From Caldibacillus thermoamylovorans (GTDB lineage Bacteria; Bacillota; Bacilli; Bacillales; Caldibacillaceae): a stretch of 64,000 nt of DNA. Made by a program: the position numbers and the translations under genes. Position 1 is the stretch's first letter. Each line of letters begins with the position of its first letter. The DNA is taken from positions 1 to 64,000 of the forward strand of contig NZ_CCRF01000035.1 of NCBI RefSeq assembly GCF_000751775.1, given 5' to 3'. The notes under the pieces are model-generated. The model did not search any database, had not been told where the DNA came from, and saw nothing but the letters and a program-made list of their open reading frames with translations. Positions 14,799 to 23,934 of this stretch are shown piece by piece.

Positions 14799-15524
14799 TC
14801 ATCTAAAAATTCGCTGCACGTCTATTTTTAATTTCTCAAATAGATAAGACTGAGCCATTTCGTTCTGTTTGTAGGTCGTAAATTCTTGAATATTCTGTTC
14901 GTCAAAAAGATACACAGTGATTTCCTTGTTGTCAGGATTCACAATCCAATATTCCTTCACGCCACAAGACATATAGAGATCGAGTTTCTTAATCAAGTCC
15001 TTTCTTCTTGTCCCCTTGGAAAGCACTTCAACAATTAATGTTGGAACCCCTTTGTAATAATCGTTGTCATCCAAATTTTCTTCCAGGTCACAAATCACCA
15101 TTATATCCGGTTGCACGATATTGATTTGTTCTGGTGTTCTCCTGAGTTCAATATCATAGGGGGCAACTATTGGCGTGCAATTGCTTCCTTGAAAATAATT
15201 GTAGAAACTCCCGTAAATTTCCCCAACTGCTATTTGATGTGCAGTTTTTGGTGAGGCAAGTAAATAAATTTCCCCATCAATGTACTCATATCGTTCATCG
15301 GACTCCTGCCATAATTGCAAAAATTCCTCATAGGTTGCTTTTTTACCGTAGCCATATAGTGGTACACTTTCATGAATTTGATTTACGGCACTACCGAGTT
15401 GATCACCCAAGGCGGTAAGTTTTGCAATTTCAGTACCATTGCGGGTGATAATAATATCTTCCTGTGCAGCTAACATTAAATACTTTCCAAAGTTATTTTG
15501 TAATTCAGTGGAGTTGACCTTCAT
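14799..15524 (-). CDS. Phd/YefM antitoxin-like domain fused to Uma2 nuclease-fold domain
   Basis: 241 residues. Residues 1-45 (VNSTELQNNFGKYLMLA, IIITRNGTEIAKL) match the Phd/YefM antitoxin fold. Residues 65-235 are a Uma2/DUF820 domain of the PD-(D/E)XK superfamily: the acidic residue in YEYIDGEIYLL, PDIMVICDL near 150 and PTLIVEVLSKGTRRKDLIKKLD near 170 supply the expected D, E and K. The fusion places a DNA-binding, toxin-neutralising type of domain on a predicted nuclease in one chain. No separate toxin or antitoxin gene is adjacent. The biological role is unknown. Confidence 0.82.
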   Translation of the reverse strand: MKVNSTELQNNFGKYLMLAAQEDIIITRNGTEIAKLTALGDQLGSAVNQIHESVPLYGYGKKATYEEFLQLWQESDERYEYIDGEIYLLASPKTAHQIAVGEIYGSFYNYFQGSNCTPIVAPYDIELRRTPEQINIVQPDIMVICDLEENLDDNDYYKGVPTLIVEVLSKGTRRKDLIKKLDLYMSCGVKEYWIVNPDNKEITVYLFDEQNIQEFTTYKQNEMAQSYLFEKLKIDVQRIFR

Positions 15525-15730
15525 TTTAGCAGTACCTCCAATATTAGTTAAAGTAGCTAATATAGCTAATAATAATATACAATTAGAATGGCTATGTTTG
15601 CAAATGATGTGAAGGGAGTTCTGAAGCCAAAATGATGATAGAGTTCTGATAAACGAAACCTGTGACTCTTTTACAACGTATATATTAAGCGTATTTAATC
15701 ATTCTTAACATGAAGATGGAGGTGGAAAAA

Positions 15731-16480
15731 TTGGGATTTATTCAAATAACCAAAGGTAATATCGAAACCGAACATATATGCTGTGCTTTAGGGGCAAAAC
15801 AGTATGAACATGCAGTTAGCGAGAAGAAAAAGTGGCTGACGGAACGAATGGATGAAGGGTTAGTTTTTTATCGTTTAGATGAACGTGCAAAAGTATTTAT
15901 TGAATACTTGCCTGCTGAAATGGCTTGGGTTCCTATTGATGCACCGAATTATATGTATATTAACTGTTTATGGGTTTCAGGAAGACATAAAAATAATGGG
16001 TATGCCAAGCAACTGTTAGACTATTGCAGAAATGATGCCATTAACCGTGGGATGGATGGGATTGTACATATTGTAGGGAAGAAAAAATATCCGTATTTAA
16101 GTGACGGGCGTTTCTTTGAACATATGGGGTTTGAAATAGTAGACCAAGTAGAACCATATTTTCAATTAATGGCATTGACATGGAATAAACATGTTGTCCC
16201 TTCTTTTAAAAAACAGGTAAAAACCTTTTCCGGTGATGAAGGGATAACGATTTATTATACTGTGCAGTGTCCATTTGCTGTTGGTATATTGGAAGAACTA
16301 AGAAAAATAGCAGAAAACAAAAATGTGCCTTTTAAAACGATTAGAATAACAACGAAAGAAAAAGCACAAAATTCACCAACAATCTTGACAACTTTTGGTT
16401 TGTTTTATAACGGGAATTTTATTACACACGAAATAATCAGTCCAAACAAATTTGATAGATTATTATCAAAACTATTGTAG
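15731..16480 (+). CDS. GNAT acetyltransferase with YoaP domain
   Basis: I choose TTG 15731 because GGAGGTG lies seven bases upstream; ATG 15710 and 15716 precede that site. This gives 249 residues. The N-terminal 150 residues are an acetyl-CoA-binding GNAT domain (CLWVSGRHKNNGYAKQLLDY). The C-terminal 60 residues match the YoaP domain (YYTVQCPFAVGILEELRKIA, near residue 185) with its cysteine. B. subtilis YoaP has the same layout. The acceptor is unknown. The gene is followed after 22 bp by a YjbR-like gene in the same direction. Confidence 0.85.
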   Translation: MGFIQITKGNIETEHICCALGAKQYEHAVSEKKKWLTERMDEGLVFYRLDERAKVFIEYLPAEMAWVPIDAPNYMYINCLWVSGRHKNNGYAKQLLDYCRNDAINRGMDGIVHIVGKKKYPYLSDGRFFEHMGFEIVDQVEPYFQLMALTWNKHVVPSFKKQVKTFSGDEGITIYYTVQCPFAVGILEELRKIAENKNVPFKTIRITTKEKAQNSPTILTTFGLFYNGNFITHEIISPNKFDRLLSKLL

Positions 16481-16502: not shown

Positions 16503-16862
16503 ATGGATAAAACTACCATTGAAACTATTTGTTTAAATCTGACAGGAACTATTCAAGATTATAAAAAAGAGTGGGAAGCTACTCGCTTTCTAGTTGGCAA
16601 CAAAATGTATGCAATGATTGGTGGTGATTCAGAAGGGAAACCTATCTTAACCTTAAAATGTGACCCAAATCGTTCAGAAGAATTACGAGCGAATCATGAT
16701 AGGATTATCCCCGGATACTATATGAACAAAAAACACTGGAACTCAATTTACTTTGATTCGAGTATATCAAGCGAGTTAGTTGAAAAACTAATCATCCATT
16801 CTTATTCCCTTGTTTTACAAAGTTTACCTAAAAAAATACAAAAAGAGATTAGTCAATCATAA
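16503..16862 (+). CDS. MmcQ/YjbR family protein
   Basis: 119 residues of the MmcQ/YjbR fold (CyaY-like, DNA-binding by similarity). Typical motifs are KPILTLKCDPNRSEELR near residue 57, IPGYYMNKKHWNSIYFD near 75, and a C-terminal helix LIIHSYSLVLQSLPKK. The start follows AAAGGAGAATG at good spacing. It probably forms a two-gene transcript with the YoaP-like gene. Molecular function is not established. Confidence 0.85.
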   Translation: MDKTTIETICLNLTGTIQDYKKEWEATRFLVGNKMYAMIGGDSEGKPILTLKCDPNRSEELRANHDRIIPGYYMNKKHWNSIYFDSSISSELVEKLIIHSYSLVLQSLPKKIQKEISQS

Positions 16863-16973
16863 TGAAATCTATTTTTCCATTAAGCTAAACCTTATTTATT
16901 GAGTTAGACACTTTCATAAGGACTGATATGGGGGACGCTGAACTAGTTTCCATGTCAAAGGGGGGGCAATCGA

Positions 16974-19019
16974 ATGGTTCCAACAACAAATGAAAATCTA
17001 ATTATTCCTATAGATAGAAAAAGTCTGGAATCCATAGCTGATTGGTTCGATCAACAGAAAAACCGGTTCTATCCGCTTGGTTGGACCTATGTTAAAACGC
17101 AGCGGCAAATGGAAGAATTATTTTACCGGTCTATAATGAAAGTCCACAAAGAACTACATCGATTGAAAGGCGAAACCGATTTCGAATCATGGGTTACATC
17201 CATTTTTATACATATTTGCAGGGAGTTTACTACTGATATTAGTTTACTAGCTTCGGAGGAAAATAACCCGCATAATGATTTATTTCAAGCTCTTGACCAA
17301 TTAAATATGGAAGAGAAAGAAGCACTGGTACTTACATATGTGAGCGGATTCCCATATGAAAAAGCGGCCCACCTTCTCCAAGTTTCAGTGGAGAAGCTGA
17401 AAGAGCTTTTGTTTTCCGGCATACAGTCACTTAGAAAAGAATTGGGGTACGGATCAACTTTTCATGGGTGTAAGGAGTATCAAAAGGATTATACCTCTTA
17501 CTTAGATCGAACGATGGAGCGGTCGAAAAAGATTGAGTTTGAAATTCATGTTTATCATTGTCAAAACTGTCAGGAGGATTTAGGGACTTTTCAGGATGTC
17601 CGTATCTACCTTACTGAACAAAGTAAAGAGTTGCCTATTCCCACCGGTTTCATGAAAAATATTAAAGCTAGGCTGGCAGAAAAGGAAAAGAAAAGGCGGC
17701 AAAAGATCAAGAAACGTAATAAATGGGTTTTTATTTTTGCAGTTGTATGTACATTAATAATCGGAATCGGTTTTTTTACCGGGACTTTTGCAAACCTTTA
17801 CTATACATGGACGGTAGAAGATCAAGAATTGCTACCCTATCTGCAACATGATTTTGGTGAGATGCTGAATCTGGAAGCAGAAAGTAATGGAGTGAAAGTT
17901 AAGATTAAAAGCGCAATATCAGATGAGTTCCAGACGCTCATTTTTTATGAAATTGAAGATACAGAAGCAGACAATCAATATGGAATCATGTTTGGCGATG
18001 GGGTTTTTGTGGAGAACGAAATTGATTTGATGAATACGGATGTCTATCCCCTAAATTACCCGCCTGACCTTGAATCGGCTATAAATAAAGAAAAAAAGAA
18101 TGTGTACCATGGAAAAATGGGTTTATTTCCAATCAGAGAGGATAACGGAACAATTAAACTGGTGATTACACAGTTAATGAAATTGAATGATGCCTCATCA
18201 AACCCGGATGAAGTTTACGATGGAAATTATAAAATAGGAGAGTGGGAATTTGAAATCCCTGTGAAAAAACTTCCCACCAAACAATATACATTGGATGAAG
18301 AAATAGCAGTCGAGGGAGTCCCGATGCGATTTGATAAACTAATTATTGCACCAACAGCAACGATTCTGCAATATAGTATTAATGCTATACAGCCGGAAAA
18401 AAATTTAAGTAGTATTACTTTTGACAAACTGGTAGTGAATAATAAAAAGGTGATTGCAGATTTATATGGTGGCGCTTTTATTGATGCGCAGGAGGGCATG
18501 GATTGGAGTACTTATCAGGCTTTCTTTGAACCATTTTTTGGGAAAAAACCAAAAGAAGTCAAGGCTCAATTGAAAGAAGCTTTCCTAACAGTTGAAGACC
18601 AAAAAATCGTTGAATTGGATCCGTCTCAGAATTATCCGCAAACCTTTGCATATGCGGGCAGTACAATCACCATCGAAAAGGTAGAAATTGGAAATCCATC
18701 CAAAGTTGTTATAAGTGATGATAATATTGAAAATCGAACATATGAAACGCTGAACCTCGGTATAAACGGTGATGAAAATATTGAAATGGGAATGAGAGAC
18801 GATGGTGTGATTGTTGATAAAAATGGCAACAAATACGATCCGATTGATGATTTAGTCAAGTATGAAGAAATCGAACAACCCCGTTATTTCGTAACAAAAT
18901 ATGACATCAGTTTACAAAGTGACAAAGCCGGCGAAGAAGTGGTTCCGAAAAGACTCGAAATTTATGGCTATAATACGACGAAATACTTGAACAATGTCGT
19001 AAAAATATCATTGGATTAA
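16974..19019 (+). CDS. Single-chain ECF-type sigma factor / membrane anti-sigma fusion (DUF4179)
   Basis: 681 residues in one uninterrupted frame. Residues 20-90 resemble sigma-70 region 2 and residues 105-160 region 4 (LDQLNMEEKEALVLTYVSGF, then a helix-turn-helix). Residues 164-205 look like a zinc-finger anti-sigma segment (HVYHCQNC). A basic stretch (EKKRRQKIKKRNK) precedes a membrane helix at about 250-271. The extracellular remainder has a DUF4179-like domain and a second beta-rich domain typical of Bacillus anti-sigma partners. These parts are normally two adjacent genes. Here the sigma factor would be tethered to the membrane. Release by proteolysis is an inference. The ribosome site is AAGGGGGGG. 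Confidence 0.8.
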   Translation: MVPTTNENLIIPIDRKSLESIADWFDQQKNRFYPLGWTYVKTQRQMEELFYRSIMKVHKELHRLKGETDFESWVTSIFIHICREFTTDISLLASEENNPHNDLFQALDQLNMEEKEALVLTYVSGFPYEKAAHLLQVSVEKLKELLFSGIQSLRKELGYGSTFHGCKEYQKDYTSYLDRTMERSKKIEFEIHVYHCQNCQEDLGTFQDVRIYLTEQSKELPIPTGFMKNIKARLAEKEKKRRQKIKKRNKWVFIFAVVCTLIIGIGFFTGTFANLYYTWTVEDQELLPYLQHDFGEMLNLEAESNGVKVKIKSAISDEFQTLIFYEIEDTEADNQYGIMFGDGVFVENEIDLMNTDVYPLNYPPDLESAINKEKKNVYHGKMGLFPIREDNGTIKLVITQLMKLNDASSNPDEVYDGNYKIGEWEFEIPVKKLPTKQYTLDEEIAVEGVPMRFDKLIIAPTATILQYSINAIQPEKNLSSITFDKLVVNNKKVIADLYGGAFIDAQEGMDWSTYQAFFEPFFGKKPKEVKAQLKEAFLTVEDQKIVELDPSQNYPQTFAYAGSTITIEKVEIGNPSKVVISDDNIENRTYETLNLGINGDENIEMGMRDDGVIVDKNGNKYDPIDDLVKYEEIEQPRYFVTKYDISLQSDKAGEEVVPKRLEIYGYNTTKYLNNVVKISLD

Positions 19020-20780: not shown

Positions 20781-21386
20781 TCAATCTTCCATTTTTTTAT
20801 CCAGCTCTGCAGCCTGTTGTGCGGCGTCTCTTAAACTATCCTGTATGTGCTTAGGGATTTCTTTGTTATATTTATAGTATATTTTATGTTCCAAGCTAGC
20901 CCAGAAATCCATTGCAATCGTTCGAATTTGGATTTCAACATAAACATGTTCCATTCGGTCAGACATAAAAATCGGAATTTTCACGATGAGATGTAGGCTG
21001 CGGTAGCCGTTTGCCTTTGGATTCTTGATATAATCTTTTATTTGAACAACTTCTACATCTTTTTGATTTTTTAACATATCTCCAATTTTATAAATATCTT
21101 CTGTAAAAGAACAAATAATACGAACGCCGGCGATATCTCGAATATTTTCTTTAATATCTGTTAACGAAGAGGTACAACCTTTTTTAATCATTTTATTTAT
21201 GATGCTTTGCGGTGATTTAATCCGGGACGTCACATGTTCAATCGGATTATATTCATGGATGAGTTCGAACTCTGCCTGTAAAATTTCTACTTTTGTTTCA
21301 ATCTCTTTTAAGGCAAAACGATATTGTAATAAAAAACGAGTTATCTCCTGTTGTAATTCTTTTAAATTTGGTATATTTTGTATCAT
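20781..21386 (-). CDS. relP: Small alarmone synthetase (RelP/YwaC type), C-terminus probably frameshifted
   Basis: 201 residues of the RelA/SpoT synthetase fold without hydrolase domain. Motifs are RIKSPQSIINKM (substrate loop), IRDIAGVRIICSF, PKANGYRSLHLIV and EIQIRTIAMDFWASLEHKI. It makes (p)ppGpp from GTP/GDP and ATP. The first two thirds align well with B. subtilis YwaC as I recall it. The frame stops at KKMED, but the sequence after the stop stays codon-like in another frame (RLNSEINILKAHD to FSEFLS, stop at 20683-20685). One extra A near 20786-20789 would extend the product to about 236 residues. Confidence 0.88.
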   Translation of the reverse strand: MIQNIPNLKELQQEITRFLLQYRFALKEIETKVEILQAEFELIHEYNPIEHVTSRIKSPQSIINKMIKKGCTSSLTDIKENIRDIAGVRIICSFTEDIYKIGDMLKNQKDVEVVQIKDYIKNPKANGYRSLHLIVKIPIFMSDRMEHVYVEIQIRTIAMDFWASLEHKIYYKYNKEIPKHIQDSLRDAAQQAAELDKKMED

Positions 21387-22804: not shown

Positions 22805-22995
22805 AAAAAATCCCTTTCCTATCGTTATTAATTCGAATCTTGATGAAAAAATATATTTCGATAGTTTTACTTGATAAATACATATATTTCGCTATTTCTA
22901 TATAAAAATCCTTCTAAGTTTAGATGGTGATTTTTCATCTACAGTTTCTCAACATATTTTTTAAATATAATGCTGAATTGGAGGAAGTGCTTCCT

Positions 22996-23934
22996 TTGAA
23001 AAAATTTGTCATTACGATCAGTCTTGTAATGGTCATCGGATTATTACTTGGAATTTTCTTTTATAATCAAACGCCTAATCAAGCTTTACCGGATATCGAT
23101 CCACAACCGGAGGAACAAAGCATAGATGAAACACCAACACAACCTGAACAGATTCAAGGAATTTATCTCAATGAACAAATCGGATACTCCCTGCAGAATG
23201 ACCGGCTTCAAATTACTTTTGATAAAGGGAAAAATTGGATCACCGTCCCTATAGAAAAAGATCAATTGTTTGCCGGCGAATATAATGGGAACAAACAGGA
23301 ATTGATTGATCATAGTTATCTATTGACAGAAAATCGGACTGCCTTTTTATATGCCGAAGAACCGAGTTGGGATAACGAAACGATTCGTATCCTATTTACA
23401 CTCGATCAAGGGAAAACTTGGATGAACTCGGTCGTTACCGAACATTACATGGGTGTACGTTTCCGAAAAGTAGGATTTGTAGATGATCAATTCGGGTATA
23501 TTATCATATCCGGCGGGCGGACGATGTCACAAGAAGGTTCCAATGTGTTCTTAACATTTGCCGGCGGCCAAAGTTGGCAGGAAACGAATAATTCGGGCGT
23601 TAGTCGACTTATTGCAGACGGGGGCTTTGTTGATGCAAAGATCGGTTTTCTGTCTTTTGGGACGATAAATCCGGAAGCACCGGAATTATACGTAACTCAA
23701 GATGGCGGAAATACTTGGAAACAAGCAACGGTAAATATTCCATCCGAGTACGACAAAATTTTTGTGCAATCAGAGACACCGTTTATAGAAGATGACCATT
23801 TAGCAGTTTTTGTGAATCAAGGTCCGAATGGCGACTATAAAGGTGGTTTAGTGAAGGGAAAATTTATTTCTACAGACAAAGGAAATACATGGGCGTTTTC
23901 AATGGAGGTGTCCCCGGATGAAGCAAACAAGTAA
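22996..23934 (+). CDS. Membrane-anchored Asp-box (BNR) repeat protein
   Basis: 312 residues from TTG 22996, ten bases after GGAGGA. An N-terminal membrane helix (residues 4-25) is followed by an acidic, proline-rich linker (DIDPQPEEQ). A beta-propeller then carries five Asp-box motifs: FDKGKNWITV, LDQGKTWMNS, TFAGGQSWQE, TQDGGNTWKQ and STDKGNTWAF. Such propellers occur in sialidases and in non-enzymatic sensors. No catalytic residues were identified, so a surface binding role is more likely than hydrolysis. The end overlaps the next gene by 17 bp. Confidence 0.75.
   Translation: MKKFVITISLVMVIGLLLGIFFYNQTPNQALPDIDPQPEEQSIDETPTQPEQIQGIYLNEQIGYSLQNDRLQITFDKGKNWITVPIEKDQLFAGEYNGNKQELIDHSYLLTENRTAFLYAEEPSWDNETIRILFTLDQGKTWMNSVVTEHYMGVRFRKVGFVDDQFGYIIISGGRTMSQEGSNVFLTFAGGQSWQETNNSGVSRLIADGGFVDAKIGFLSFGTINPEAPELYVTQDGGNTWKQATVNIPSEYDKIFVQSETPFIEDDHLAVFVNQGPNGDYKGGLVKGKFISTDKGNTWAFSMEVSPDEANK

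Follow-up and report, generated by a model that had tools for sequence, protein, structure and literature searches.

A membrane-anchored protein of Caldibacillus thermoamylovorans combining a degenerate ECF sigma factor with a ZAS/DUF4179 anti-sigma factor: a probable sigma mimic

Sigma and anti-sigma factors fused in a single polypeptide have been described on several occasions. IutY of Pseudomonas putida (ECF243), a fusion shown experimentally to be active, consists of an N-terminal sigma fold, a membrane helix and an extracytoplasmic anti-sigma part of the FecR type; it functions in iron cell-surface signalling and its active sigma factor is freed by Prc and RseP (PMC5411451). Sigma/anti-sigma fusions are also predicted for ECF48, ECF52, ECF53 and some members of ECF36 (PMC8999054). 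In the actinobacterial ECF48, ECF52 and ECF53 proteins, of which SCO4117 is an example, the C-terminus of an ECF sigma factor runs on into a zinc-finger anti-sigma domain with a membrane helix, and activation by proteolysis is expected. Other known systems share only some of these features. The DUF4179 anti-sigma factors RsiV of Bacillus subtilis and BAS1627 of B. anthracis (PMC6066255) carry a membrane-proximal DUF4179 domain and control a sigma factor that is a separate protein, and SigW and the ZAS anti-sigma factor RsiW of B. subtilis (5WUQ) are likewise two proteins. PhyR displays a correct ECF fold in which the promoter- and polymerase-contact regions are degenerate (PMC8103513), and is a soluble response regulator with a receiver domain that acts on a separate anti-sigma factor.

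The protein analysed here is encoded in a 64,000-nucleotide stretch of the C. thermoamylovorans genome (contig NZ_CCRF01000035.1, positions 1 to 64,000; hereafter the window). It resembles IutY in the order of its parts, but its anti-sigma portion is of the ZAS/DUF4179 type, a Pfam scan returned no FecR match, and the contact residues of its sigma part are lost. It shares the layout of ECF48, ECF52 and ECF53, groups which their descriptions set apart by other ectodomains and another phylum. SigW is its closest solved sigma factor by profile (E = 2.6e-12), but retains all contact residues. With PhyR it has in common a degenerate-contact ECF fold and a structural match to the NepR-bound sigma-like domain of PhyR; it is nonetheless not a PhyR member, being membrane-bound, endowed with its own anti-sigma domain and devoid of a receiver domain in the Pfam scan. 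Active sigma/anti-sigma fusions are thus already known, and the present protein is a variant with a degenerate sigma part. Our search of the open-access literature found neither a DUF4179 protein described as carrying a sigma part nor a report of a degenerate sigma factor fused to its own anti-sigma factor. When automatic annotation labels such proteins as sigma factors or as DUF4179 proteins, their composite nature is masked.

The gene occupies positions 16974 to 19019 of the forward strand (stop codon included), to which all features below belong, and is a single open reading frame of 681 codons that starts with ATG and has no internal stop. A strong Shine-Dalgarno sequence, AAAGGGGGGG, lies just upstream of the start (16957 to 16966), and a G-rich Shine-Dalgarno sequence is similarly placed in most homologues. 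The N-terminal part comprises a sigma region 2-like domain (residues 18-91; 17025 to 17246), delineated by TIGR02937, the helices of the AlphaFold model and residue comparison, and a sigma region 4-like domain (residues 102-158; 17277 to 17447) that passes the PF04545 cut-off (25.5 bits versus 24.1) and has kept its helix-turn-helix fold. The ECF sigma model TIGR02937 covers residues 30-157 just above threshold (45.5 bits, cut-off 42.9), while the curated scores required for the SigV subfamily (45.1 bits versus 190) and TIGR02954 (52.7 bits versus 188.5) are far from reached.

A class I ZAS anti-sigma domain (residues 166-247; 17469 to 17714), helical and located ahead of the membrane helix, comes next. 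Its motif, C166...H192xxxC196xxC199, accounts for the segment HVYHCQNC that a preliminary description of this locus had called zinc-finger-like: the segment supplies the Hx3Cx2C of the domain, and C166 lies upstream. By sequence the protein thus carries the zinc motif of class I anti-sigma factors. Each of the four ligands is at least 90% conserved in 18 homologues, and HxxxCxxC is found in 70 of the 71 fused proteins with a recognizable ZAS domain. Family models detect the domain less readily, in that Pfam zf-HC2 scores 12.3-14.6 bits against a cut-off of 22.2 in the window protein (5/18 homologues match at E <= 0.01), NF052375 and RsrA match below their cut-offs, and the profile match to RsiW is weak. 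The window protein also hinted that an acidic sigma part might be matched in charge by a basic anti-sigma domain. This idea was dropped because it does not hold generally among fused proteins, whose ZAS domains have a net charge of -2.5 on average, and no correlation was seen.

A single membrane helix (about residues 250-271; 17721 to 17786), located from the sequence and from the alignment of this region, follows. DUF4179 (residues 246-328; 17709 to 17957; PF13786, 51.8 bits, cut-off 30.1) is positioned at this helix, an arrangement that, judged by sequence, is that of RsiV-type anti-sigma factors. In homologues a small residue usually comes directly after the helix, where a signal peptidase site is expected, and this position could be a candidate site. 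The ectodomain further includes a DUF5643-like part (residues 435-529; 18276 to 18560), which falls below the PF18705 cut-off in the window protein (29.6 bits versus 34) and matches in 17 of 18 homologues. Profile searches and a Foldseek comparison of the full-length model both relate the ectodomain to BAS1627 (3FBQ), and no lysozyme-binding domain was recognized in the window protein.

Three genome sets served to assess the occurrence of the fusion: 61 genomes searched at the protein level, 397 genomes from the same order searched with a profile, and a 398-genome sample of the phylum. Counted from the match list of the profile search, uninterrupted full-length fusions are present in 59 of the 397 genomes. 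The phylum sample contained only two carriers, both from the same order, and yielded none outside it. The fusion is conserved across many genera, with carriers including Neobacillus niacini, Peribacillus deserti and Pallidibacillus pasinlerensis. Compared with the window protein, identity ranges from about 60% down to about 21%, and the linker of the aligned fused homologues is short and colinear. Some genomes (L112, L113, L114, L115) harbour the fused gene in two or three nearby copies, one of which (L112, at 12129) has a shortened frame that may merely run past the end of the stretch examined. No second DUF4179 protein was found in the genome to which the window belongs.

This distribution refutes a sequencing or assembly artefact, that is, an apparent fusion of two normal genes caused by an overlooked stop codon or a frameshift, an explanation to which we attach practically no probability. 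Two-gene relatives do exist and might be taken to speak for it, and the preliminary description had designated relatives with two genes and an intervening stop as the sign of an assembly error. Such relatives are, however, diverged split homologues. The fusion is neither fortuitous nor an assembly error, since stop-free full-length versions occur in 59 of 397 genomes and in the named genomes, across many independent assemblies and with the same short, colinear linker.

The two-gene form was found in four genomes (L107-L110), in which a sigma frame of 174-185 codons immediately precedes a 534-572-codon anti-sigma frame bearing matching ZAS, DUF4179 and C-terminal parts. The start of the anti-sigma gene overlaps the sigma stop codon or sits just past it, and in L110 the two frames share the same register, separated by a single TAG. 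A small change would therefore suffice for fusion. Phylogenetic analysis of the anti-sigma part places the main fused clade on one side of a branch and the split forms on the other (ultrafast bootstrap 81, SH-aLRT 100). A decayed group (L117-L119/L019) groups, on long branches, with a split relative, and the tree neither establishes nor rejects that all fused proteins go back to one fusion event (AU p = 0.108). The fusion is old and probably came about in a common ancestor of some Bacillales, where an ECF sigma gene was joined to the ZAS/DUF4179 anti-sigma gene beside it. The locus offers a traceable case of a fused pair whose sigma part subsequently lost its functional surface while remaining under selection, and the surviving two-gene relatives permit direct comparison. 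In a side lineage (L117, L118, L119, L019 (L123) and L146) the sigma part is far decayed and the zinc motif lost, with the ectodomain kept.

Residues of region 2.4 take part in promoter contact in ECF factors. Regions 2.1-2.2 bind the polymerase clamp and region 4.2 binds the -35 element (PMC7406223). The fused sigma domains were aligned with 39 free ECF sigma factors and the four split ones, and residues were compared at 12 contact positions from regions 2.2 to 2.4 and 4 and at 20 hydrophobic core positions. At the contact positions, which were picked with the alignment in view, canonical residues make up 0.14 in fused, 0.75 in split and 0.83 in free proteins, and none of the 12 in the window protein; the corresponding fractions for the core are 0.94, 0.97 and 0.91. 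When every column conserved in free sigma factors is tallied, the result agrees: the loss is selective for basic (fused 0.34 versus split 0.86) and polar (0.28 versus 0.79) positions, hydrophobic ones standing at 0.64 versus 0.73. In SigW numbering, Q50/E51 of region 2.2 have mostly become Y and R, and N79 mostly H, K or Q; in the recognition helix E, L and S mostly replace T171, R172 and R175, and the basic patch 86-89 is mostly gone. Split sigma factors retain recognition helices of the GTVKSRIYRG type and the basic patch of region 2.4, which the fused ones do not; the fused sigma parts also have a lower net charge and pI, and that of the window protein is acidic. By sequence, the window protein is without the residues through which ECF sigma70 factors contact core polymerase and promoter. 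The poor conservation of region 2 remarked on in the preliminary description is borne out and extends to the recognition helix of region 4.2.

The decay is uneven, as a VKSRL-type recognition helix is retained in some fused lineages (L114, L127-L132, L142). The Q/E pair of region 2.2 is in turn already lost in the split sigma factors (replaced by H/N in three and by Q/T in the fourth). Given both observations, decay looks stepwise, affecting region 2.2 first, then 2.4 and then 4.2.

Across six orthologue pairs, dN/dS amounts to 0.18-0.31 for sigma2 and 0.10-0.44 for sigma4, similar to the 0.14-0.37 of the rest of the protein; only the linker between sigma2 and sigma4 is relaxed. The low values in the sigma part indicate that the domain is maintained. 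AlphaFold2 modelling of the cytoplasmic module from 11 sequences (pLDDT 83, pTM 0.79) predicts the sigma2 and sigma4 fold of the ECF family, and sigma2 and sigma4 behave in the same way in the full-length model (pLDDT 73.5, pTM 0.49). In Foldseek comparisons against sigma chains, their arrangement groups with those of CnrH/CnrY (TM 0.75), SigW/RsiW (0.73-0.74), RpoE/NepR (0.61-0.69) and the NepR-bound sigma-like domain of PhyR (0.63), which superpose at 4-6 Angstrom; polymerase-bound ECF factors superpose only at 21-28 Angstrom. The models thus place sigma2 and sigma4 in a closed form, as in anti-sigma-bound SigW/RsiW and CnrH/CnrY and unlike the polymerase-bound form, which fits a sigma part docked on the neighbouring anti-sigma domain. 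The sequence, the homologues and the structure predictions accordingly bear out the original proposal of a sigma factor and a ZAS/DUF4179 membrane anti-sigma factor fused in one 681-residue frame, and two of the checks suggested with it returned a predicted sigma fold and similar fusions in the order.

Judging from the contact residues, the sigma part is very probably not a working initiation factor. The explanation that we find the most convincing overall, and consider probable, is that the gene encodes a membrane-anchored pseudo-sigma/anti-sigma fusion, a sigma mimic held by its own anti-sigma domain. Against it stand the score of the sigma part, still just above the ECF model cut-off, the VKSRL-type helix of some fused lineages, the earlier loss of the region 2.2 pair in the split sigma factors, the failure to find a partner in trans or a conserved neighbour, and the poor likeness of the model to complexes with inserted anti-sigma factors (RseA, RskA, MucA; 10-13 Angstrom). 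The preliminary description had envisaged either that a cut somewhere between residues 160 and 250 sets the sigma factor free or that it acts at the membrane, with a pseudo-sigma as the alternative. The fusion underlying the former holds; the former also presupposes a working sigma factor, and the contact residues favour the pseudo-sigma. Should proteolysis occur, the first cut would, by analogy with RsiV (PMC6066255), fall at about residues 271-275, just outside the membrane helix, rather than at 160-250. An active tethered ECF sigma factor released by regulated intramembrane proteolysis and using an unusual promoter, as in IutY, would have a known architecture and mechanism (PMC5411451, PMC8999054), and is suggested by the position of the RsiV signal peptidase site within DUF4179 (PMC6066255) together with the small residue usual after the helix here, by the TIGR02937 score and by the VKSRL helix of some lineages. 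We nonetheless hold it to be unlikely: the polymerase-contact pair of region 2.2, the asparagine and basic patch of regions 2.3-2.4 and the contacts of region 4.2 have been lost selectively relative to the core, the sigma part is acidic, and no conserved autoregulatory promoter was recognized upstream. Equally doubtful, if not slightly more so, is a purely structural or regulatory role of the sigma part as a plug for its own anti-sigma domain, the output being that domain itself or the protein being a receptor that no longer regulates transcription. The closed arrangement predicted for sigma2 and sigma4, the lack of a nearby partner gene, and the loss of a recognizable ZAS domain and of most sigma similarity in L117, L118 and L119, which kept the ectodomain, all speak for such a plug, but purifying selection on the zinc ligands and sigma part of the main clade, like that on the ectodomain, is unexpected for a pure relic.

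Under the favoured reading of a sigma mimic, the fused protein is probably no direct gene switch and may act as a built-in decoy. After fusion, the sigma part would have lost binding to promoter DNA and core RNA polymerase and been retained as a folded mimic docked in cis on the adjoining anti-sigma domain. An envelope signal, presumably sensed through the DUF4179/DUF5643 ectodomain, may then trigger RsiV-like proteolysis, possibly with a cut just past the membrane helix, or a conformational change, and so expose the mimic or free its anti-sigma domain. Either could in turn titrate the anti-sigma or sigma factor of a separate ECF pair in a partner switch akin to that of PhyR, an output that, by this analogy, we put forward tentatively. 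More tentative by a little is the notion of a whole Bacillales family of membrane-tethered mimics, in which an ECF sigma factor captured by its own anti-sigma factor has no transcription function left and serves as a signal-controlled decoy switching other ECF pairs. If the mimic model is true, sigma-factor mimicry, as known from PhyR in Alphaproteobacteria, extends to Gram-positive envelope signalling.

The output is the weakest link of this scheme, because neither a conserved neighbouring partner nor a conserved promoter was recognized. Only the Shine-Dalgarno region is conserved across lineages in a 160-base upstream alignment, which revealed no conserved autoregulatory ECF promoter, and consensus promoter matches in the gene region are no more frequent than in shuffled sequences. 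No operon partner is conserved across lineages, neighbours being only clade-specific, and no partner acting in trans was found. Upstream of the fused gene in the window lie a 241-residue open reading frame (14799-15524, reverse strand) that joins an N-terminal antitoxin part of the Phd/YefM type (PF02604, E 1.2e-6, slightly short of its cut-off) to Uma2, a putative restriction endonuclease (PF05685, E 4.7e-32), a forward-strand GNAT acetyltransferase gene with a C-terminal YoaP domain (15710-16480) and a YjbR-family gene (16503-16862). Downstream are genes for a small RelA/SpoT-family protein of 201 residues, probably a small alarmone synthetase (20781-21386, reverse strand), and for a 336-residue protein with weak BNR/sortilin-like repeat matches (22924-23934, forward strand).
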